From: Pigoraptor vietnamica
Lineage: Eukaryota; Opisthokonta; Filasterea
Reading direction: 5' to 3'
DNA: 20,019 nucleotides
Assembly: GCA_943704525.1 (NCBI GenBank)
Contig: CALSCQ010001314.1
Location: 1 to 20,019, forward strand
Shown: piece by piece, positions 862 to 20,019 of the stretch
How the letters are laid out: each line of letters starts with the position of its first letter
Position numbering within the stretch: position 1 is the first letter of the stretch
The notes under the pieces: generated by a model
What the model saw: the letters and a program-made list of their open reading frames with translations, nothing else
What the model was told of the DNA's origin: nothing
The model's database searches: none
Program-made: the position numbers and the translations under genes

Positions 862-2512
862 CTAGTCGCGCGAGGGGCGCGGGGGAATCGCGGGCCGCGG
901 CGGCTTGGCCGACGACGACGACCGCCCGTTTGACGAGTATCCGCCTGCGCTTGTCCCGCTCGCTGCGCTGGGCGTGCGCGTCGCAACGGGTGCTCCGTTC
1001 GCAACGCCGAGAGATCCATTCGTCGCGGGCGCAGTTCCGTTCGCAGCACTCCGGCGCGGGGGCACCGGCGGGGTCTCCGAATTGTTGCCGTGTGCGCCCG
1101 TCGCACCCGCCGCACCGCCAGCAACCGGCTGACTCGTTGTCTTCCGCGCGGTCGCGGCCGTCCCTTCGCCCGCCGGAGGGGCCTTGTCGGCACGTGATGC
1201 GGGCCTCAGCCCGTCGCCCACGCCCACGCCGGCACCGGCGCCGTTCAACGCGGCAGAGCCCGTGCGAGTGAGCGCGAGACCGCCCTGCGCACCGCCGTTC
1301 GCGCCGCTCGCCATCCGCGTGACGCTGCGCGCGTTCAAACGACCGACGGCTTCGTCGTGCGGCATGTGTGCGATGGGCTGCGGTGCCGTGGCCGCAAACG
1401 GCGACTGGGTCGCGTCGATGCCCTTGCCGCCGCCCGTCATGCGCATGTAGAGGGCCGACGCGTACAGCAGCTCCTTCTGCAGGCGCGCGGCTTCGTTGCA
1501 TAGCACGGCCACGCGGTCCCTGAGCGCGCTCGGGTCGGCGGGGAGTCCGTCGGGACCGAGGTCGACGGTGATGGTGGAGATGTCGAGTCCGTCGTCGAGC
1601 TTCTTCTTTGCGCCGATGACGTCGCTGTTGTGCGGGCGGCCGTAGGCGTTGTCGACCATGACCTGGAACCCTTCGTTCTTCTCGACTCGTCGAATGACGC
1701 GGGGCTTGTTGCGGACGAAGGGGAAGTAGTAGAGTATGTTGTAGAGCATGCCGTACACGCGCAGAAAGAGGAGGACGGGGAGCTTGTAGATGAGCGGGAA
1801 GAGCACGCGCGTCTCTGGTGCGATGCCGCGGCCGATGGGAGAGAGCACGCGCCAGTTGTAAACGGCGAACACGACGATCTGGAACGCCCACGCGAGGATG
1901 ATTCCCTTGAGGAAGACGACGTAGTTCTTGTACATCACGAGGATGATGATGCCGTAGAAGAAAAACAGCCAGTCGTTGATGATCATGAAGAGGTCGTGCA
2001 GCGCAAGCACGCGCGCCCACACGCCGCGCCACGACCGCACGCTCGGCGGGTGGAAAATCATCTTGACATACTTCCAAAGGAAGCGGTGGCGGCTGACGTC
2101 CCACCCCTTCCCGCGCTGCAGGAACAGCGAGGGCTCGCCGCAGTCGCACGGGCGGAGGCCGAGCTTGTTCGACACGGAGCGCGGGAGGATGTCGCGGATG
2201 TGCACCCAGCAGATGGGGACGTCCGTGCCGACGACGATCGTGCTCGCGCAGTCGACCTTGTAGCCGCCCGTGTGCACTTTGGAGGGCTCCATGATCCACG
2301 GGCGACCGGCCAGCGAGTGCAGGATAAGACCCTGCGGAGGGAAAGAGGGGTCCAGCGTGTGAGCAGAGGAGTCGAGGGGTGGTGCTGGCGAGGGACACAC
2401 GAGAACGACCGCAAAATTCTTAAAAAATGTAATGGAGATAAAGGAGTGTATATGTGGGCGGACGAATGACAGGGAGTGCGTGGTTGAAGGGGAAGTAAGC
2501 ACTGACGACGCC

Positions 2513-2586
<74 letters not shown>

Positions 2587-2904
2587 GGAGGGAAAGGAAG
2601 CCATTGACGATGACTGAGGGAGACGTGCCTGCTGGAGGTCGTCGCCGTGGTGCATCGTGTCGTGGCGATAGAGAATGTCGACAATGTACTCGGTGCGCCA
2701 CGTGTTGAATGCGCCGCTCGCAAAGAGCGTCGTCCCAAAGTGCGCCTGGACGATCTTGAAAAAGCTGAAGGGGGAGAGTGGTGAGCGAGGGAGCATGGAA
2801 GATACCAAACGCACAAGTATACACGCATCGACTCATACACACGACTACACGCACACACACACGCACGCACACACACACACACACGCACGCACACACACAC
2901 ACAC

Positions 2905-2944
<40 letters not shown>

Positions 2945-4310
2945 GCACACACACACACACACACACAACGCACGACAAGGTCACCCACCCTGCGAGCAGA
3001 TACTCCATGTTCTCGAACTGCGCGAGGGCGTACGTTCTGTTCATCGCGCACAGCGGATAAGCGAGGCACTTGACCGCCGGGTCCTCAAAGTAGCTCAGCA
3101 CTTCCTCCTGCGACCACGCGTCCGGCACAATCGTGTCGTCGTCGATCAGCGTGACAAAGTCGATGCGCCGGCTGAAGTTGCGCAGGTTGTATGCCGTTGC
3201 AAACTGCGCGATCGTTTTGTTGCCCTCGGGCAGCGTCCCGAACGAAACGGGCGGCCCGGTGTAGCTCGGGTGCTGCTGAACGTACCGCAGCGTGAGGTCG
3301 CGGCACGCGCGCTCCGTCGCCTCTATCTCCGCCACCGACGAGCCGTTGTCGGCGACGAAAACCTGCCACGGCTCGCTCTTCTTGAGGATGTTCTCCACCG
3401 TCGCGACAATCTTCTTGCTACTGTTGTGGCACGCGATGATGAACGCGTGCCCGCCCTTCTCCGCCTGCGGTACTTCCACCGGGGCCTCCGATACCCGACG
3501 ACGCAGCGTGCTCGCTCCCCCCGTCGCAGCCGACGACGACGCGCCGCCCGCAGCGCCGTTCCCCGAGCCCGCGCCGCCCGCGCCGCTTCCGTTCGCGGCA
3601 GCGGGCGGCTTATACTTCGGGTCGTTCGGGCCCCGCCACGGAACGATAATCGACATGCAGAGCAGCAGGAAGGCGTCCCAGTTCTGCAGCACCATGTACA
3701 TGAGAAAGTACGCGTAGATGGTGGAGACTGTCGCGCGCTCGGCCTCGACGTCCTCCGCGAAGGCGACGACGACCTGCAGCACGGTCATGTCGCGCTGCCG
3801 AGAGCGCGCGAAGATGGCGAGGGACGTGCCGAGGAGCATGATGAAAGCGATGCCCTGCAGCGAACCGAGCCCTTGCTGGACGCGTTTGCGGTGGCGCACC
3901 GAGTAACAGTAGAGGACCTTGCCAAACACCGGACGGACGACGCCGACGTAGAAGAGCGCGGCCATGACGACGGCGAAGGAGGCGAGGATGAGGTACTTTT
4001 GCGCCGCCTTGAGGTTGTCGGTGGATGTCGTCGTGCACTCGCAGTGCTGCTGCGCGCGGGGAAACGAGTCGACGGGGTTCGCGAGGCCTCGATACTTGAA
4101 CATGGCGGTGGAGATATTGTGGGCGCCGACCTTGTACCGCTCGCAGAAGCACGGCTGCGACCACATGTCCCATTTGTAGATCTGTGGGTTCGGTGTGGCA
4201 TGTGCGCAAGAGTTGAGGTGAGCTGTTTGCTTTGAAACATTGTGAAAAGATAACACATGGAGCCACTGTTGAGGGAGACGCACACACACACAGACAGGCA
4301 CGGACGCACA

Positions 4311-4388
<78 letters not shown>

Positions 4389-6991
4389 GCACACGAACCT
4401 GCTTCTGCAGCTTGACGTTGTTGAACCACAGCTCGAGGCCAATGCCTCCCACGGCCGTCTGCTGCGTGATGGTAAGATTCGACTTGCCTTGGAACGTGTA
4501 AACCATTCGCAGCGAGGGATCGGAAAAACCGAAGAAGCTCCACGGCACGCGTGCCTCGATCACGTTGTCCTTCACCTGACGTTTGAAGGGCCGTGTGAGG
4601 GATATTGGCAAATCACACACACAGGCGGCACACACACACACACACACAACAACACACAACACACGCACGCACGCATGCACACACACACCCCCGCATACAC
4701 CCGCACAGATAAACACACCGCATGCGCGAGAACGACCACGCTTGCACGGCGTCTGAGTGCTGCACCCACCTGGTAACCCGCGAGATTGTTGAAGTCCGGG
4801 TCCGTCACCTTCGTCGTCCCCTGCACGAGCTGCCCCGCCGTGAACAGCGTGTGCGGAAAGTAGTACGGCTCTCTCGGGAACCCGCGCCGGGGCACTTCCG
4901 TCGGCACTTTGGTGATAATCTCAAAGATGTGGAATCGCCCACGCGCGCTGTTCGCGAGGATCGAGGCGTCGTCCAGCAGCCGCACGCGCTCGGCGTAGCG
5001 CCGCAGCCACCAGCTCATAGCGTCGTTCGAATACGCCGCGACGCCGCCCGTCCCGAACGCGAGAAGGTAGTCGATTTGGCTGTCGAAGCGGATGGTCTCG
5101 AACACGTCGGCGAAGAACGAGCCCTCCGTGGGAACGCTGTCGACGCCAATCCACAGCTGGTCGTTGGGCTGCCACGGCGCAAACTTTTCCGCGAGGATGT
5201 AGACGAACGAGGCGTCGTGGGTGATGAGCACGCGCTTCACTCCCGGCAGATTGCCGCCGATGTTCGGCGCCTCGAGGGTCGTCCAGTCGCTCGAGTCGCC
5301 GTCGACATCGACGTCCCAGCGAGGCTCGACGGCGATGATGCCGAAATACTGCTCCGAGCTGAGCGTGTTGTGCCACGCCTTGCGGTTGAGGTCCCACTTG
5401 ATCGTGTTCCAGCTGCGCTTGAACCACTCGTCCGTCAATTCAAAGAGGATGACGCCCTGGTAGCCCTGCGCGTACATCATGTCCATCGTCTCGACGAGCA
5501 TGATCCCTTGCTGGTCCTCGCGCACGTGACCGTGGTCGCGGTTCTTGTAGCCAAAGTGCGCCGAACCGAGCGACGTCGGAAAGCCCGTCTCGGAAATAAC
5601 GAGCATGTAGTCTGCAAAGTACCGCCGGTACTCGATAAGGTACCACTCGAAGGGGTCGTCGGTCGACTGCCCCGTCTCGCTCTTCGGGTAGCCGTAATCG
5701 GCGAGGCTGTAGCGCAGAAAGTCCTGCGAGCGGGAGGTGTCAGTGCATCCCCCCCGCACGATTAGCGACTGCATTGAACGGGAGTGTGTGCGTGCGTGCG
5801 TGTGTGCGTGTTCATGATGTCTGCGTGCGTGCCGTGTGTGTCTGTGTGTGGGGAACACTTGGGCGCCCACTTACGGGGTAGTAGCAGTAGAGATGCTCCT
5901 GCGAATTGACCAGATCGCTATGGTGAGCGAAAAGTGCACTGCAAGCCACGAACAACGGAACTAACACACACCCAAACGCCACATGATAACGCACACACAT
6001 ACACAAACGCGCGCGCGCGCACACCCCCACAAACACAGTGACACAAACACACGACCAGGCCGGCAGCCCTACGCACGCACGCACGCGTCGCACCCACCGT
6101 GACCCAGTACCCCGCCGCCCACTCCGGGCTGAGAATGAAGTGCTTGGAATTGACCGTCATCCAGTCCTCGTACGAGATGTCTGGCTGGGGCTCCAGCGGG
6201 TGGTGGAGGGGGTCCGTCGTGACCCAGTTCGATACGGCCATGGGAAACATCCACCCCTGGTTCGCATTCAGCGTGCAGAGGTAGTCGAGCATGATGCACA
6301 GCCAGTTCTCGAACGTGTTCGAGTCGGGGGAACACCGCACCCACCGCCCCGTGTACGGCGCGCCGGGGAACACGTTGTAGTTCGTCTTGTTAACGGCGAA
6401 CGGCTCCCACTCGGTCCCCATGAGCCACCCGAGGACCCACTGCGAAATGTCCGACGTGTACGTCCCAAACACCCCGTTTGCATACTCGACTACGCCCGTC
6501 CCGTGCGCCGCCGTCGTCGTCTTCTCGATAAACTTCTTCATCTTCGAGTAGATGTCGTCCTCGAACGCGTCCGCGCCCCACCCGTCCGGCCCCGAGAGCT
6601 CCTCGTCCGGCGACCACACGCCGTGTATCACGTAGAGGGGATCGTTGGGCGATGTGATCGTGTTCCACTGGACGATCGCGTCGTAGAAGGAGGGCGGCAG
6701 CGTCGTGTAGATGCGAATCACGTTGCAGCCGAGCGTCTGCGTGTACTTGAAGTAGCGGAGGTAGTCGTCCTTTGTGAGCGGGAGCTCGCCGGGGTCGTGG
6801 CCAGGCTTGGACGCGCCGATGTTCATGCCGGAGATGTAGCCGAACTGCACCCACGTGTTGCCCTTGAGCTGCCACAGCTGCCCGTTCTCCACGCGAAAGT
6901 TCATCTTGTATCCCGCAGCAAGCGAAGGCGCGTGCGCGAGGCACACGAGGATCGCAATCGCCGCGCACGCGGCTGCGCGTAGTCGCGCCAT
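862..6991 (-). CDS. Membrane GH-CBM9-GT2 fusion: glycoside hydrolase plus processive-type glycosyltransferase
   Basis: Seven exons on the minus strand (6991-6098, 5898-5875, 5723-4770, 4575-4399, 4181-2989, 2764-2629, 2331-862) join in frame to 4848 nt, or 1615 residues. The start is the first ATG, followed by a signal peptide (residues 1-26). Residues about 30-430 form a clan-A-like TIM-barrel glycoside hydrolase, with candidate acid/base E194 (GTEWEP) and nucleophile E351 (ISETGF). Residues about 440-683 resemble a CBM9/DOMON-type sugar-binding domain (DGDSSDW, then VIEARVPWSFFG). Three helices follow (about 746-766, 793-808, 838-865), placing the GT2 domain in the cytosol. The GT2 domain has D961 (VADNGSS), D1030-D1032 (LIDDDT), GDDLQQ at 1121-1126 and QRGKGW at 1198-1203. 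Further helices and a Pro/Ala/Gly tail with PxxP motifs close the protein. The inferred role is synthesis and trimming of an extracellular polysaccharide; the sugar is unknown. GH-GT2 fusions are known in bacterial glucan synthesis (NdvB, GH17-GT2). The last intron is GC-AG. Confidence 0.88.
2332..2628 (-). other. GC-AG intron 6 of the GH-GT2 gene
   Basis: Read on the minus strand, the exon ends CTCCAGCAG and the intron begins GCACGT; it ends CCTCCGCAG. Only this junction keeps the frame and rebuilds the conserved GT2 segment GDDLQQ-GLILHSL. The nearest GT (four bases into the intron) gives the wrong phase. The 297-nt intron holds a 72-bp dinucleotide array that reads CA on the sense strand, unlike most introns of this gene. 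Confidence 0.75.
2514..2585 (+). repeat. (GT)n microsatellite in intron 6
   Basis: A pure GT array of about 36 copies on the plus strand, CA in the sense of the host gene, lies entirely inside intron 6 of the GH-GT2 gene. Confidence 0.95.
2848..2967 (-). repeat. Compound (AC)n/(GCAC)n array in intron 5
   Basis: AC dinucleotides with periodic ACGC interruptions lie in the 224-nt intron 2988-2765. They read as GT on the sense (minus) strand. The intron has donor GTGGGT and acceptor CTTCAG. Confidence 0.93.
4319..4383 (-). repeat. (AC)n microsatellite in intron 4
   Basis: A pure AC array on the plus strand, GT in the sense of the host gene, with a shorter impure array just left of it at 4281-4318. 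Both lie inside intron 4398-4182 (donor GTTCGT, acceptor CCACAG). Confidence 0.95.
4616..4690 (-). repeat. Impure CA-rich array in intron 3
   Basis: CA-rich simple sequence lies inside intron 4769-4576, reading as GT on the sense strand. The intron donor is GTGGGT and the acceptor ends ACGTCAG. Confidence 0.85.
5781..5850 (+). repeat. Impure GT-rich array in intron 2
   Basis: GT/GTGC repeats on the plus strand lie inside intron 5874-5724, reading as CA on the sense strand. This intron has the textbook donor GTAAGT. Confidence 0.85.
5875..5898 (-). other. 24-nt microexon of the GH-GT2 gene
   Basis: On the minus strand ATTCGCAG precedes GAGCATCTC and TACTACCCC precedes GTAAGT. The exon encodes EHLYCYYP in phase 0. 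Joining it between GYWVT and DFLRYS gives a continuous glycoside hydrolase segment with an aromatic HLYCYYPDF motif, as expected before a late strand of the barrel. The alternative upstream acceptor (CCATAG) breaks the frame. Confidence 0.8.
5986..6060 (-). repeat. CA/CG-rich simple sequence in intron 1
   Basis: CA-rich and GC-alternating simple sequence, reading GT-rich on the sense strand, lies inside intron 6097-5899 (donor GTGGGT). Confidence 0.75.
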
Positions 6992-7490
6992 TCCGAGCGT
7001 TTTGCGCGGCGTACGCGCGCGTGTGTGCGTGTGCGCGTGTGTGTGTGCGTGCGAGCAATAGAAATCCGCCGTCGCAACAGCGCAACTGGCTATTAGCAAA
7101 ACGCGACCATACGTGGCGAGAGAGAGGTCCGCACTTATGAGCGCTCGTGAGGGAGAAACAGAGGACCGCGGGGAGCAGCGAAGCGACGCGGAGGCTGAGT
7201 CAACAATAAGAGGCAGATTCGCAATTGGCAGGTGTCCCTGCACGGATGAAGGAAGAGAGAGAGCGAGGGACACGCACAGTCGCGTAGAGAGGCCACGACA
7301 GACGTCCGTAGAAAACACACTGTTGCGGCAGAGAAGACACGGGGTGCTCGTCGCACACCCAAACGCCCGAAATGGAACACGGGAGAGAGGCGCGCACGTG
7401 GGCCGGCGCCGATCTTCCCCTCACGGCCATTATGGGGGCGGTCTTAAGCCGGGTGTCACCGGCTGCGTCACCGTGCTGAACGAGTAGTGT

Positions 7491-8379: not shown

Positions 8380-10181
8380 TCAGGCGGCCGCACGGCCGGC
8401 GCGGCTCTTCTCCGCCACGAGCGCGTTAATCTTGACCCACACCTTCTCGCGCGCATCCGCGGCCCAAATGAGGTCCATGTGCTCGTACAGCTCGACGCCC
8501 TCCGCGTGCACGAGGTTCACCTTCCCGCCCTCGCGCAGCTCCTTCTCGAGGCGTCCGCCGTGGACGAGCGAGTCGCGCTTGCCGTAGAACATGGCGACGG
8601 GGCACGTGATGTTGTGCGGGTTGTAAGCCTCCGACTCGCCGTACGGGCACAGGCGGCCCACGCGGAGGTTCTCGGCCCAGTGCATGATGAGCTTGACGGA
8701 CGTCGGCTTGGGGGTGAACTGGAAAAACTTGGGCTTGTTGTGCTGGTGCCAGAGGGCGTCGCCCCAACCGAAGAGGTAGTTGAACATGACGTAGGCCATG
8801 CTCGTGAAAACGGCGACGGGCGCGTAGTCCTGGACGACGTTCATGATGGGGATAAACGCCTTAGTGCCAAAGAAGCGCACAAACGTCTCGCGGGGCTGGT
8901 TGACCATGTACGACAGCGCCCAGTGGCTGCGGCAGGGGAGGGGTGGAATGTGTAAGCTCGTAAGCTCCTATTCATGATACACGCGCATACACACACACAT
9001 GCGCACACACCCATCTACACATACACACACACACACATACACATATGCACTCCCACAGCACGCACACGAGCACGCGCACATGCACACACGCACACGAGCA
9101 CGCGCACATGCACACACAGGCGCACACTGCAGACACCCACTTCACGGGCCCAATAAGGTACGCGGGCGCGAGCGCAATGAAGAGGTTGAGCTTGTCGCCG
9201 ATGGCGGGGTCGTGCGAGAGGCCGAGGAACGCCTGCGCGTTGCCCTGCGAGTGCCCAATGTACGTGCAGCGCTCGTGGCCGCTCTCCTTGCAGACGTAGT
9301 GCACGAGCGCGGGGAAGTCGAACCGGCCGAGCTCGTCAAGGCCCCAGTCCCAAAACTCGCGCTCGCCCGGGCGCAGCGCCTGGTGCTTGGGGACGACGCC
9401 GCGGTTGTTGCCGAGCCACACGTCGTAGCTGCATAAATGGAAGCACACGTGTGAGCACGGGGACATTACGCCATGACATTATGAACGTTGCGTGTGATGC
9501 GACGCGCGAAAATCCGAAAATGATGGCGCACTCACCCCTGGTCGGCGAGGTAGAAAGCAAGGCTGTCCTCTTGGCTGCTGACAAAGATGCCGGCCGATTG
9601 GAAGAGGCCGTGCTGCACGAGAATGGGCTTGAACGACGCCGCGTTGTCCTTCGCCTCGGCGCGGAAGACGCGGTAAACCTGCGTCGGCACATTACGTCAG
9701 CAACCAAGCCCAACGAATTCAGAGCATGTAGCAGGTAACGCACACGTCCCCAGCGCCCGACAGACACGTGCGTCACACACAGCGCTGACACGCGACGCAC
9801 CTGCAGAATGAACCCGTCGTCCGTCAGCACCTCGTGCTCCTCGAAGCAGTAGCCGTAGCGCGTCGCATAGTAGCGAACGTCCGAGCAGTGGCGCTCGTCG
9901 GCATGGGGGCGGTGCGGGCGGCTCCCAAACAGCGACTTGGCGAGAAGCGCCGCGGCAAGGTCGAGGCGCCACCACTTGCCGTCCACGCGCGCCTTGTACT
10001 CCTCAAAATATGCGCAGAGAACGAGGTAGAAGAGGCAGATGCACGAAAGGACCTGCCCGCTGAGCTCCTCAAACCAAGTCCCCGCGCGAGGCACGAAGCT
10101 CTCCTTCCAGAGGTAGAGGACGATGGCAAGCGCGCTCGTCACGCCGAGGCCGACAAGCTCTTGACCCGAAAACTCCATCAT
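8380..10181 (-). CDS. Membrane-anchored acid lipase / steryl ester hydrolase family alpha/beta hydrolase
   Basis: Four exons (10181-9801, 9678-9536, 9428-9141, 8926-8380) join to 1359 nt, or 452 residues. The likely product hydrolyses steryl esters or triacylglycerols, as in the family of human LIPA and yeast Tgl1, Yeh1 and Yeh2. Two hydrophobic segments (residues 9-24, 43-59) replace a cleaved signal peptide, as in the yeast members. The lid/AB-lipase motif follows (HEVLTDDGFILQ-VYRV), then the oxyanion HG at 150-151 (LVQHGLFQS), DVWLGNNRG at 177-185 and the nucleophile elbow GHSQGN with S234. D389 (GKRDSLV) and H420 (YEHMDLIW) complete the triad. Introns have donors GTGCGT, GTGAGT and GTGGGT. 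The third carries a CA-rich minisatellite. The paired ATG at 10181 starts just before the first hydrophobic segment; an upstream in-frame ATG at 10241 is possible but less likely. Substrate and organelle are inferred. Confidence 0.9.
8972..9061 (-). repeat. CA-rich array in lipase intron 3
   Basis: Impure CA repeats, GT on the sense strand, fill much of intron 9140-8927 next to an exact 28-bp tandem duplication. Confidence 0.85.
9062..9117 (-). repeat. Exact tandem duplication of a 28-bp unit
   Basis: Bases 9062-9089 and 9090-9117 are identical. Each unit starts GCACACGAGCACG and ends ATGCACACAC. It lies in lipase intron 3 and looks recently duplicated. Confidence 0.9.
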
Positions 10182-10375
10182 CGCAAACCAAAATCGTATT
10201 GGCGCGCTGTGGGCACGCCCTAGACTCAGCTGGCAACGCACAAATCGAAGCGGAGATTGCGATTAAAAAAAGATGCAATGATATTACCAGACTGGCAAGC
10301 CCTACGACGACACTGCTTGTGTCCCGTGTGCGCGAGTGTGTCGTGTGTTTGGGTTTGGTGCGCGTATTCGTGTTC

Positions 10376-15143: not shown

Positions 15144-16765
15144 ATGAAGGAAGGCCGCCCTGGCGCGGCGGCTCCGGCCAAGTCGCACAACGCAGAGGCG
15201 CCGCTGCCGCCCCAGCGACCGCAAGTGGGCGATTCGATTCCTCTCTCTAAGGAGTACGCAGATCCATTGGCACATCATCATCCACCCCTCGTGCCCGCTG
15301 GCGATGTCCCTTCCCACGGCAATACGGGACCGCGCGCTGCTCCTGTCGCATGGCCGACCCCGATGATGCTGCCCAGCCACGTCGTAGGGCCCTCCTTCCC
15401 GCACGACGCGCACAGACCGTACTACGCCTACAACACTTACGGCGAGCAAGGCCACTTGTTGCGCCGCGATCTACCGCCATTGAGGGACGCGCGGGGGCAC
15501 AGTGGACACGCGGTTCTTCCACCGCCGCCCTCTGTCGGTCTTCTCGGCGGCGCGCCGGGGGCGATCTCAAGCATACGCGGACTGCTGCATGAGCCTGGTG
15601 GCGGCCGCCCTGTCCTCCCACAGCCGTCAAGCGCCGAGGCCGCGTACCTGCAGGACCTGTACCGCGAAGCGCTCGCCCGTCTCGATCAGGCGGACGCGTG
15701 GATTGCGTGGCTGGAGAGTCGTCTCGACAGAGAGGCAAGTATCAGTGATATTCGTGTCACGTGCGTGTTACGCCTCCGCAGCTGTATTAACTCCAGTCTG
15801 CGCGCACTGTCCAGGAGAGGGCGCTGAGGGCGTGCAAGTGCGGTGCGGCCGCTGCGCTTTTGGAGGAGTACAGCCGTCCGTCTGCGGCCTTCTCTCGAGA
15901 GGGCGAGCCGCCCTCCACCTGGCCAACGACGGCGCCAAATTTTGGCCCCCCTCGGCCGTTTATAATTCATTCTCCGCGCGATCCCGCGCAGCTGTCGCGC
16001 GAATCCGCCCCTCCACAGGGATCTGCGACCGCCCGCGCCGTCGCTTTCGCGAGTGCCCCATCGACCGAGAGCGCGGCGTCGGCGCGTGAAGGTGACAGCG
16101 TGGCCCTGCAGGATGCCGGGGTGGCTGGCGCCCGTCAGATCCTTCCACACAACACTATGTCGACTCCGTCATCCGCGACAGGGAGTCTTTCGGTCGTCAC
16201 ATTACCGAAGACAAAGCGGCGGCGGCGGACGTTTGCGGAGCTCGATGAGAGCCAGATGCGGCGATTCCGGTGCCCCGTTAACCAGTGCGGGCGCATGTAC
16301 GCGCTCGAGAATTCCCTCAAGCAGCACATGCGCAGCAAGCACGGTTACACGCCAGAGGAAGCGGTTTCGGCGGTGTCGGTGCAGGTGCTGTCTCTCGGCG
16401 CGTCCGGCGGCGAGGTGCCTGACACGGACAAGGGCGAGGAAGTCGCGCTGCGCCCCGTCGCCGACTCTGTAGGAGGGAGCGAGAGTACTGCGAGCGTTGC
16501 GCCGAGCGTTGCGCCGAGTGTTGCGAGCGAAAGGGACCCCGACGCCGTGCGTGGGCTCGAACTGAAGAGCTTTTCATCGGAGGAGTCGTCCGTGTCGTCG
16601 GTTTCGCTGACATCGGGCGTGCCGACGGTGGAGCGACCTGCGAAGCGCCAGCGAAGAGAGTCCGCTCGCAGGCCGTCCGGCGGCGCACAAGAAGCGCGCC
16701 TGGCGCGCGTGGATGAGGAGATCGATATCGTCCGACCAACGCCGGATAACCCCCCCGTCGACTGA
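15144..16765 (+). CDS. Single C2H2 zinc-finger protein, probable DNA-binding regulator
   Basis: Two exons (15144-15734 and 15815-16765) join in frame to 513 residues. The start is the first ATG after an in-frame TGA at 15087. Residues 1-160 are Pro/His/Gly-rich and probably disordered. Residues about 164-215 form a predicted amphipathic helix or coiled coil across the splice junction (YLQDLYREALARL, then LESRLDRE-ERALRAC). A basic stretch KTKRRRR at about 329-335 is a likely nuclear signal. The finger is FRCPVNQCGRMYALENSLKQ followed by HMRSKH, with C350, C355, H368 and H373 (C-x4-C-x12-H-x4-H). This is a complete zinc ligand set with a longer first loop than the classic C-x2-4-C finger. The tail is Ser/Glu-rich with a small VAPS repeat. 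It is probably a nuclear regulator; targets are unknown. A helix plus a single finger suggests dimeric DNA binding, which is inference. The intron is GC-AG. Confidence 0.82.
15735..15814 (+). other. GC-AG intron of the zinc-finger gene
   Basis: The donor is GAG|GCAAGT, the consensus of GC-type U2 introns, and the acceptor is CTGTCCAG. The 80-nt intron joins two phase-0 ends. The GT four bases downstream does not restore frame with any nearby acceptor. An acceptor 18 bases upstream (at 15797) would also keep frame and add six residues. Confidence 0.75.
16492..16527 (+). repeat. 12-bp tandem repeat in zinc-finger coding sequence
   Basis: GAGCGTTGCGCC occurs exactly twice (16492-16503, 16504-16515), followed by a partial third copy. 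It encodes SVAPSVAPSVAS in the acidic/serine-rich tail. Confidence 0.85.
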
Positions 16766-18426: not shown

Positions 18427-20019
18427 TGTGTGTGTGTGTCTGTGTGTGTGTGTGTGCGTGTGTGTGTGTGTGGGTGAGTGTGTGTGTGAGTGTGTGTGTG
18501 TGTGTGTGTGTGCGTATCTCGAGCCGTAATGCGCTTCTAACGCGAAGTGCGCGAATAGGAACGTTTGGACGAGGCCAATGTGCACAAGGAAGAGGGAAAC
18601 CGCCACTTTTCTGCTGGAGAATATGGACTGGGTGCGTGCTGCAGTGTTGGATTTTTGCGTTAGGTCAAGTGCGGTGTGTGTGTGTGTGTGTGTGTGTGTT
18701 TGTGCGTGTGTGTGCGCTATTGCGTGCGTCACGTGTGTATGTGCGATTGCGTGCGTCATGTGTGTATGTGCTATTGGGCGCGTGTATGTAAGTGATATTG
18801 GGTGCGTTGCGCGTCCGTGTTTATGTGCGTTTCTGTTATTGCGCCGGATGCCTGGAACAAATGCACTGCAGTGTGCGTGGCTCTGCGAAGTCGCGTTGTA
18901 TTAGTCATGCGCAGCGCGTGTTGTGAGAGCATGCCACTTTCCGCGGTCTCATCTCTGCCCCTGTGCGCAGCCATCGAATGTTACACTCGCGGCATCGAAC
19001 GCTGTCCGCCGAAGCACGCCGCCGCCGCCGTCTTCTACAGCAACCGTGCAGCATGTTACACGAAGCAGGTGGGCGTTGGTCTCTCGTGTGCGAGACTGTA
19101 ACTGGCTGATGGAAGTGGTGTTGAGGGAGTGTGCTTTGTTGTACATGTGCGAGAAGCAGCCGTGTGTGTTCGTGTGTTCGTGTGTTCGTGTGGGTGCAGT
19201 TGTGTCTGCGTGCGCATCCATGCGCCAGCAACTCAGACCCCGTTTCGCAGGAGGCGCACGAGCAAGTAATCGAGGACTGCACGAAGGGTGAGGGACACCG
19301 CGCATTCGCAGTGGCCGCTGTTTGTCGCAGCTTGTGCGTGCTCAGTGGACCTCAGTTGCCCGTTGCGTTGTTACTTTGCGAAGTTTTTCTCATGTAACTG
19401 TTGCTGCAGCGCTGGCGTTGGACCCGTCGTATGTGAAGGCGCGAGTGCGAAGAGGACACGCGTATGAGAAGACAGACAAGCTGGAAGACGCGCTCGCAGG
19501 TGAGCTAGTGCGTGTATTTTTGTGTGTGTGTGTGTGTGCGTGTGTGTGTGCGTCTGCGCGTGTGTATGTGTGTTTGTGTGCGTCTGTGCGTGTGTGTGCG
19601 TGTGTGCGTGTGTGTGTGTGTATGTGTGTGTGTATGTGTATGTGTTGTGTGTGTGTATGTGTGCGTATCTGAGGCGTGCATGCGTTCGTGAATGCATGTG
19701 TGTGCGCGCGTTTGCGTGGTTGCGTGTGTGCGTGTTTGCGTGTGTGTGTGCATAGCTAATGCGTTGTACATCCAACCTTGCCGTGTTTTCTTGCCCTGTG
19801 GCCCATTCGTTCCCTTCGTTTCTTTCAGATTTTAAGGCGGTGCTTGAAGCGGACCCCGGCAATTACGTCGCGCGCGATGCCACGCGCCGACTGCCGCCAA
19901 TCATCCACGAACGACAGGAGAAGCTCAAGGAAGAAATGATCGGTGCGTGCGGTTGTCGTGGCCATTCCCTCCGACGAAGAGGGGGATTCCGTGTGCGAGC
20001 ATATGCCTTAAAATCTGAA
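17799..20019 (+). CDS. TTC1: Tetratricopeptide repeat protein 1 (TTC1) orthologue, 3' end outside window
   Basis: Seven exons are visible: 17799-18056, 18174-18353, 18559-18631, 18971-19068, 19251-19287, 19410-19499 and 19829-19942. They join in frame to 283 complete residues; the next exon lies beyond the window. TTC1 is a small cytosolic TPR adaptor linked to Hsp70/Hsp90 and G-alpha binding in animals. Residues 1-146 are acidic and Ser/Glu-rich, as in other TTC1 proteins. Three TPRs follow: about 154-187 (KEEGNRHFSAGEY), 190-221 (FYSNRAACYTKQ, then VIEDCTKALALDPSYV) and 224-257 (RRGHAYEKTDKLEDALADFK). The end RLPPIIHERQEKLKEEMIG matches the diagnostic TTC1 C-terminal motif (human EKTDKLDEAL and RLKEEMLGKLKDLGN, recalled from memory). 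Introns have donors GTACGT, GTGGTT, GTGCGT, GTGGGC, GTGAGG, GTGAGC and GTGCGT. Residues that clamp the EEVD tail in chaperone TPRs (G159 N160, N195) are present. Confidence 0.93.
18364..18515 (+). repeat. (GT)n array in TTC1 intron 2
   Basis: Nearly continuous GT repeats with CT, AT and GC interruptions occupy most of intron 18354-18558, on the sense strand. Confidence 0.93.
18674..18710 (+). repeat. (GT)n array in TTC1 intron 3
   Basis: A GT array on the sense strand inside intron 18632-18970, grading into the minisatellite at 18712. Confidence 0.9.
18712..18787 (+). repeat. 27-29-bp minisatellite in TTC1 intron 3
   Basis: Units 18712-18740 and 18741-18767 differ by a 2-base indel and one substitution. 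Both contain ATTGCGTGCGTCA(C/T)GTGTGTAT. A third, shorter unit (18768-18787) and further ATTGGGTGCG echoes follow. Confidence 0.8.
19515..19755 (+). repeat. Long impure GT-rich array in TTC1 intron 6
   Basis: About 240 bases of GT with CG, TA and CT interruptions, on the sense strand, fill intron 19500-19828. Confidence 0.92.

Follow-up and report, generated by a model that had tools for sequence, protein, structure and literature searches.

PgaB, AlgL and BcsZ are extracytoplasmic cutters that work with a membrane synthase (PMC5933820; PMC8829089), each as a protein separate from it. Suggested functions of such cutters in bacteria are length control, conversion to a secretable form and degradation of excess polymer, and as late as 2018 it was described as unclear why membrane polysaccharide synthases have a partner that cuts the chain (PMC5933820); for alginate, clearing of accumulated polymer has been reported (PMC8829089). 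A cutter-like domain and a synthase stand in a single chain in the pseudomonad GH17–GT2 “Orphan”/NdvB proteins, proposed to be cyclic β-glucan synthases (PMC10237404). Here we describe a gene of the filasterean Pigoraptor vietnamica (GenBank assembly GCA_943704525.1, contig CALSCQ010001314.1), found in a stretch of 20,019 nucleotides that was analysed as a whole and that we call the window; it is the contig labelled C539 in a 32.5-Mb assembly of 1395 contigs. The predicted 1615-residue product carries, from N- to C-terminus and in one frame, a signal peptide, a glycoside hydrolase barrel, a β-sandwich, three helices and a GT2 synthase. It is probable, in our judgement, that this one eukaryotic membrane protein couples the synthesis of a polymer to its processing outside the cytosol.

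The GH17–GT2 proteins, to which the preliminary description had likened the product, are indeed the nearest architecture, with an extracytoplasmic triosephosphate isomerase (TIM) barrel, helices and a cytosolic GT2 in one chain. They differ in being bacterial and in having a GH17 barrel, and no CBM9-type sandwich is seen in them in the available portions of the source. Another point of comparison is a cluster of bacterial genes, found in Paenibacillaceae and others and described below, in which a homologous barrel and sandwich often lie beside a GT2; there, the parts are separate genes, a HEAT-repeat protein is present and the GT2 is only remotely related. Neither such a fusion nor the bacterial cluster is described in the titles and abstract openings of the open-licence PMC articles listed by searches aimed at them.

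The gene lies on the minus strand (6991–862) and was spliced from sequence alone after reading in three frames, which gave back the seven exons of the preliminary description in a single frame of 4848 nucleotides including the stop. Exon 1 (6098–6991, residues 1–298), assigned by splicing and homology, holds the ATG, the signal peptide (residues 1 to about 26) and the first two thirds of the barrel, and the short exon 2 (5875–5898, residues 299–306) encodes H300, Y302, Y304, Y305 and P306, which are conserved in at least 82 of the 84 bacterial hydrolase open reading frames (ORFs) compared. Exon 3 (4770–5723, residues 307–624) completes the barrel, which ends at about residue 445 (base 5307), and encodes the larger part of the CBM9/DOMON-like sandwich; the sandwich core, with the motif E.RVPW..FGFSDPS, is in exon 4 (4399–4575, residues 625–683). 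Exon 5 (2989–4181, residues 684–1080) spans a linker, the three helices and the first half of the GT2, exon 6 (2629–2764) ends in HHGDDLQQ, and exon 7 (862–2331, residues 1127–1615) contains QRGKGW (2118–2101), the C-terminal helices, a proline-rich tail and the stop. All intron acceptors are AG; five introns are GT–AG and intron 6, which follows DDLQQ, is GC–AG; at this site the paralogues on contigs C65 and C1304 of the same genome have GT as the donor. Most introns of the gene carry AC/GT repeats, as does the window elsewhere.

The junction between the bacterial-type part and the synthase falls within exon 5. Bacterial homologues have the C-terminal motif Y.W..W....ER..K, and its counterpart in the window, IYKWDMW, opens exon 5 (81 of the 84 bacterial ORFs share Y685, and 83 share W687), from which the exon is free of stops through the helices into the GT2. 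Because the junction thus falls inside a stop-free exon, we read one gene, not two. That the model has wrongly joined two neighbouring genes is very unlikely, even with exon joins that are predicted; besides the position of the junction, a single exon of 1916 nucleotides in the C65 paralogue (exon 5, 4399–2484) encodes the bulk of the sandwich together with the helices and the first half of the GT2. The order of hydrolase, CBM9-like and GT2 parts in one chain, as first proposed, is therefore upheld by the frame and by the bacterial homologues.

Profile similarity to hydrolase or CBM9 families in residues 30–683, which the preliminary description had treated as essential, is, taken literally, half missing: in the whole protein Pfam gives GT2 models alone at E values up to 1, with none for barrel or sandwich, and NCBIfam has no match in the hydrolase–sandwich part. 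Both assignments rest instead on bacterial homologues and on the predicted folds of one of them. With conserved columns defined as those that are the same in at least 95% of the 84 bacterial ORFs (128 in the barrel, 47 in the sandwich), the window protein keeps 92/128 and 31/47, so the likeness to the bacterial family is not chance. The candidate catalytic glutamates are where they had been placed: E194 (TEWEP, codon 6410–6412, minus strand), a putative acid/base, is Glu in 82/84 bacterial ORFs, and E351 (SETGFP, codon 5589–5591, minus strand), the candidate nucleophile, in 83/84. The exceptions are the Planococcus ORF of locus L017, which lacks both residues, and a second Paenibacillus copy, that of L015, which lacks the first. 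This second copy (L015, 8057–11155) is longer and has an extra N-terminal region; the hydrolases of L124, L131, L135, L136, L139 and L140 follow extensions of comparable length.

Homologues of the barrel and sandwich occur in bacteria. A plasmid search found them in 3 of 72,556 records (Paenibacillus, Deinococcus and Planococcus), covering 78–99% of the 669-residue query, and a scan of prokaryote genomes confirmed at least 567 relatives, of which the best 80 by similarity, mostly from Paenibacillaceae, were kept; in each of these 80 loci the match extends at least to residue 620 of the query. When Bacillota genomes were drawn evenly, 23 of the 398 contained a match at 1e-10. Pfam scans of 29 members returned only weak matches, to GH72 (three members, best E 0.013), GH113 (one, 0.0049) and the neopullulanase C-terminal domain (one, 0.038), along with TPR repeats in one member from Deinococcus. 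The Firmicu-CTERM sorting domain of NCBIfam matches 16/29 (best 4.4e-6); in the first member this match lies where the sandwich begins and scores 16.5 bits, the cut-off being 50. On the evidence of these alignments, barrel and sandwich together are a real bacterial family, unnamed in Pfam and NCBIfam. The sandwich is consequently not an extra module placed between two catalytic parts, as had been supposed, since it forms with the barrel a ready-made bacterial unit. It appears to be of the CBM9/DOMON kind in the predicted fold of the bacterial homologue, which does not imply membership of CBM9; set beside CBM74 (Sas6), the glucodextranase domain, the gamma subunit of ethylbenzene dehydrogenase and CBM9, it has no family-level Pfam match, and as CBM9 itself is matched neither in the window protein nor in the 29 bacterial members, we call it CBM9-like only.

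The structure model of a bacterial member is of good quality (predicted local distance difference test 87, predicted template modelling score 0.87), and the nearest fold to it is that of GH157, a β-1,3-glucanase family (PMC10229575), with GH2 enzymes close behind and nearly as high by Z score. GH17 is absent among the 50 matches listed in the fold comparisons and has no Pfam match in the window protein or the 29 members. The modelled barrel thus appears nearest to GH157, not to GH17, and its catalytic fold is the same as that of GH157. Furthermore, the profile aligns the family glutamate equivalent to E351 (TEFG) with position 224 of LaGH157 (PDB 9g4n, 9fz9, 9g5g), and the 9g4n mutant chain (E224A) scores 13.6 against 16.7 bits. 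LaGH157 therefore shares the barrel fold and the nucleophile position; it differs in having only 19% identity and no GT2.

Processive GT2 synthases typically carry D, DxD, (E/D)D and QxxRW-type motifs. In the window protein the GT2 domain with its C-terminal helices (residues 925–1358, 1636–3458 on the minus strand, exons 5–7) is above the Pfam cut-offs for PF13641 (2.1e-11, 44.7 bits, cut-off 27) and PF00535 (4.8e-5, 23.8 bits, cut-off 23.3), while the NCBIfam matches to NodC (0.001) and PgaC (0.0036) are far below theirs. The four motifs expected from the first reading were all located in the rebuilt protein, DNGS starting at residue 961, IDDD at 1029 (DDD, D1030–D1032, codons 3135–3143, minus strand), GDDLQQ at 1121 and QRGKGW at 1198, the last being at most a variant of QxxRW; D, DDD, GDDLQQ and QRGKGW are all kept in the window, C65 and C1304. 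Hydropathy indicates a signal peptide, three helices ahead of the GT2 (residues 747–765, 790–808 and 845–863; 3642–3992, minus strand; placed by Kyte–Doolittle peaks and loop charges) and several peaks behind it. The loop that follows helix 1 contains six basic residues but none that is acidic, which fits a cytosolic loop, so the hydrolase would lie outside and the GT2 inside; the topology proposed earlier is thus likely, by this prediction. PDB sequence searches with the eukaryotic GT2, as a single sequence or as a three-row profile, gave no match, and viral contigs contain no relative of the hydrolase and none of the eukaryotic GT2. The tail encoded by exon 7 is proline-rich and has PxxPxR-type motifs (residues 1547–1554 and 1606–1615), which presumably resemble SH3 ligands; the same pattern is absent from the C65 tail.

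In the coupling that we favour, the cytosolic GT2 would polymerise a sugar from nucleotide sugars, most likely in β linkage, and the chain would pass through the GT2's own helices to emerge, at the membrane exit, beside the tethered CBM9/DOMON-type sandwich and GH157-like barrel. These two would hold the chain and cut (or transglycosylate) it, setting its length, linkage or release; the sandwich, in particular, may guide the nascent chain.

The bacterial gene neighbourhood supports a link between the two activities, with clear limits. The 83 closest loci (the 80 above plus the three from plasmids, all chosen by similarity) each have a same-strand GT2 of one type, downstream of the hydrolase in 70 and upstream in 13, at a gap of 747–1728 nucleotides (median 1220), and only one further GT2 match occurs within them (L070). 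A HEAT-repeat gene was recognised in 57/83, L072 having an unrecognised ORF in that slot; other recurrent genes, in loci some of which end before the cluster does, are a response-regulator-like gene (79), a nucleoside-diphosphate (NDP)-sugar dehydrogenase (66), GlmS (32) and GlmU (22). The models nearest to the cluster GT2, PgaC/IcaA (2.9e-40) and one associated with XrtG (1.4e-39), are each matched below cut-off. By its gene content this looks like a synthase-type exopolysaccharide cluster, whose polymer is perhaps an amino-sugar or uronic-acid polymer. The 23 Bacillota loci of the even draw (8.6–16 kb each) place a same-strand GT2 of the cluster type within 3 kb in 11, and have the NDP-sugar dehydrogenase in 4/23 and GlmS and GlmU in none. 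Universal GT2 adjacency, true for the 83 closest loci, is thereby ruled out; the pairing is common, not universal. Two of the 23 loci, L153 and L154, carry a weaker GT2 (about 1e-25) some kilobases away and on the opposite strand. A GT2-like gene near the hydrolase in L153 (13166–15716, minus strand) stands beside an ORF that starts with a sandwich-like LDGQFADW motif, possibly a second synthase–sandwich pair. Two further neighbourhoods may be recorded: the Planococcus plasmid cluster in L017 (3000–5856), with upstream polyphosphate-polymerase-domain, DUF4956 and CotH genes, and L042, where the hydrolase gene is preceded by a gene (6140–7360) for a diguanylate cyclase (GGDEF), a hint of control by cyclic diguanylate.

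No hydrolase–GT2 fusion was seen among 84, 25 and 23 bacterial hydrolase ORFs (the set of 23 being that of 25 minus two from one genome, G001, which are within the 84). Other fusions of the same parts do exist: L125 (361–3603, minus strand; the same as L151, 5848–9090) encodes a 1081-residue fusion of hydrolase–sandwich and HEAT repeats overlapping the GT2 gene, and L147 (11634–15767, plus strand), from the even draw, a divergent 1377-residue HEAT–GT2 fusion with a C-terminal region, where Pfam recognises HEAT_2 and GT2 and nothing in the C-terminal region; the latter resembles, by eye, the extension N-terminal to the hydrolase in ORFs of about 1040 residues. Because the same parts fuse in different ways, these sequences support a physical complex of the bacterial parts.

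What polymer would be made bears on another possibility, that the hydrolase is a transglucosylase which cyclises or branches a β-1,3-glucan made by the GT2, a role already put forward for the pseudomonad GH17–GT2 proteins (PMC10237404). The GH157-like fold, the weak GH72 matches in three of the 29 members and the topology in common with the GH17–GT2 proteins all speak for it by analogy; against it, GlmS, GlmU and the NDP-sugar dehydrogenase of the closest clusters point to amino-sugar or uronic-acid polymers, as does the likeness of the cluster GT2 to PgaC/IcaA and XrtG-associated models, and on balance we hold it to be rather unlikely. The eukaryotic GT2 is itself distant from that of the cluster: hhalign of the eukaryotic three-row profile with the cluster profile gives a probability of 96.8, an E value of 3e-10 and 22% identity. 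With the eukaryotic profile, five bacterial genomes or records gave no match at 0.01, a search that had no positive control and shows little. The gene is best read, from these comparisons, as a bacterial-type barrel–sandwich unit fused here to a GT2 other than that of the bacterial cluster.

The GT2 group has at least four members in the genome (C539, C65, C1304 and C1291). C539 and C65 carry the hydrolase; C1304 consists of helices and GT2 with no hydrolase match, and the C1291 gene is cut by the contig start, its upstream part lying off the contig. The C65 paralogue (6477–500, minus strand; nine-exon model, 1574 residues) has the same order of parts, and its identity to the window protein is 28% over window residues 7–779 and 52% over 782–1358. 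It keeps 63/128 conserved barrel columns, 29/47 sandwich columns and the equivalent of E194, and has Gly at E351, so that it resembles, in its residues, a pseudo-hydrolase whose sandwich has been maintained. One might accordingly suppose that barrel and sandwich serve chiefly as a scaffold that binds the nascent chain or the wall, catalysis being secondary or lost, and C65, which keeps these sandwich columns and the GT2 motifs, is joined in this by the bacterial ORFs that lack both glutamates (L017) or the first (L015); the window copy, with E194, E351 and most of the conserved barrel columns, makes it unlikely here.

The introns speak to the history of the gene. Two GT2 introns are common to the window and C65, after LLAG (phase 2) and after DDLQQ (phase 0), the latter also in C1304, and C65 has extra GT2 introns of its own; none of the window's four hydrolase–sandwich introns coincides with any of C65's four. 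This difference would agree with the acquisition of a unit poor in introns, to which introns were added once it had been duplicated. A tree of 44 rows places the two eukaryotic barrels together at 99/95, both on long branches, for which reason their place among bacteria, and transfer, are not proven. Likeliest is that the lineage's own GT2 family received the unit, presumably by transfer from bacteria, before C539 and C65 were duplicated. Bacterial contamination of the assembly might be suspected from a barrel 39% identical to a Brevibacillus protein (405 aligned residues) and 30% to C65; the six introns, which bear the AC/GT repeats of this genome, a paralogue that lies on a separate contig and has other introns, and GT2 paralogues in the same genome make it extremely improbable.

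Several observations weigh against the coupling proposed here. In the even draw, 12/23 loci are without a same-strand cluster-type GT2 within 3 kb and 9/23 have no GT2 at all in their 8.6–16 kb; the unit is thus not confined to the vicinity of such a synthase, and our confidence was lowered on this account. The remoteness of the eukaryotic GT2 from the cluster GT2 means that what the bacteria suggest about the sugar does not necessarily apply here; the fold models are of the bacterial homologue, not of the eukaryotic barrel; and the likeness to GH157 in sequence is weak (E 0.015 with profile A2) and not found with the 34-row profile A5. The missing nucleophile of C65 indicates that catalysis is not kept in every copy, and the exon joins are predictions.

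Elsewhere in the window, neighbouring ORFs at 8380–10262 (minus strand) seem to belong to a single spliced gene for a lipase-type α/β hydrolase (PF04083, 5.6e-9, in 9336–10262; Abhydrolase_1, 6.6e-4, below cut-off, in 8972–9478). An ORF at 15791–16765 (plus strand) has one weak C2H2 zinc-finger match (0.0022) and 18796–19101 (plus strand) a weak TPR match (0.0035), both below cut-off; Rfam and tRNA scans of the window found nothing.

As a wider and tentative proposal, possible if doubtful, the eukaryote may have independently rebuilt a hydrolase-coupled synthase from a transferred unit and a remote GT2, and then duplicated it into catalytic and pseudo-hydrolase forms that would shape one secreted polymer. 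On the reading that we favour, the gene would be a self-contained version of bacterial hydrolase-coupled synthases, whose parts are often neighbouring separate genes in bacteria. It also flags a hydrolase family, unnamed in Pfam and NCBIfam, that often belongs to an exopolysaccharide-like cluster. With synthase and cutter held at a fixed 1:1 ratio, and a natural paralogue without the nucleophile, the question of why a synthase has a cutter becomes directly testable.

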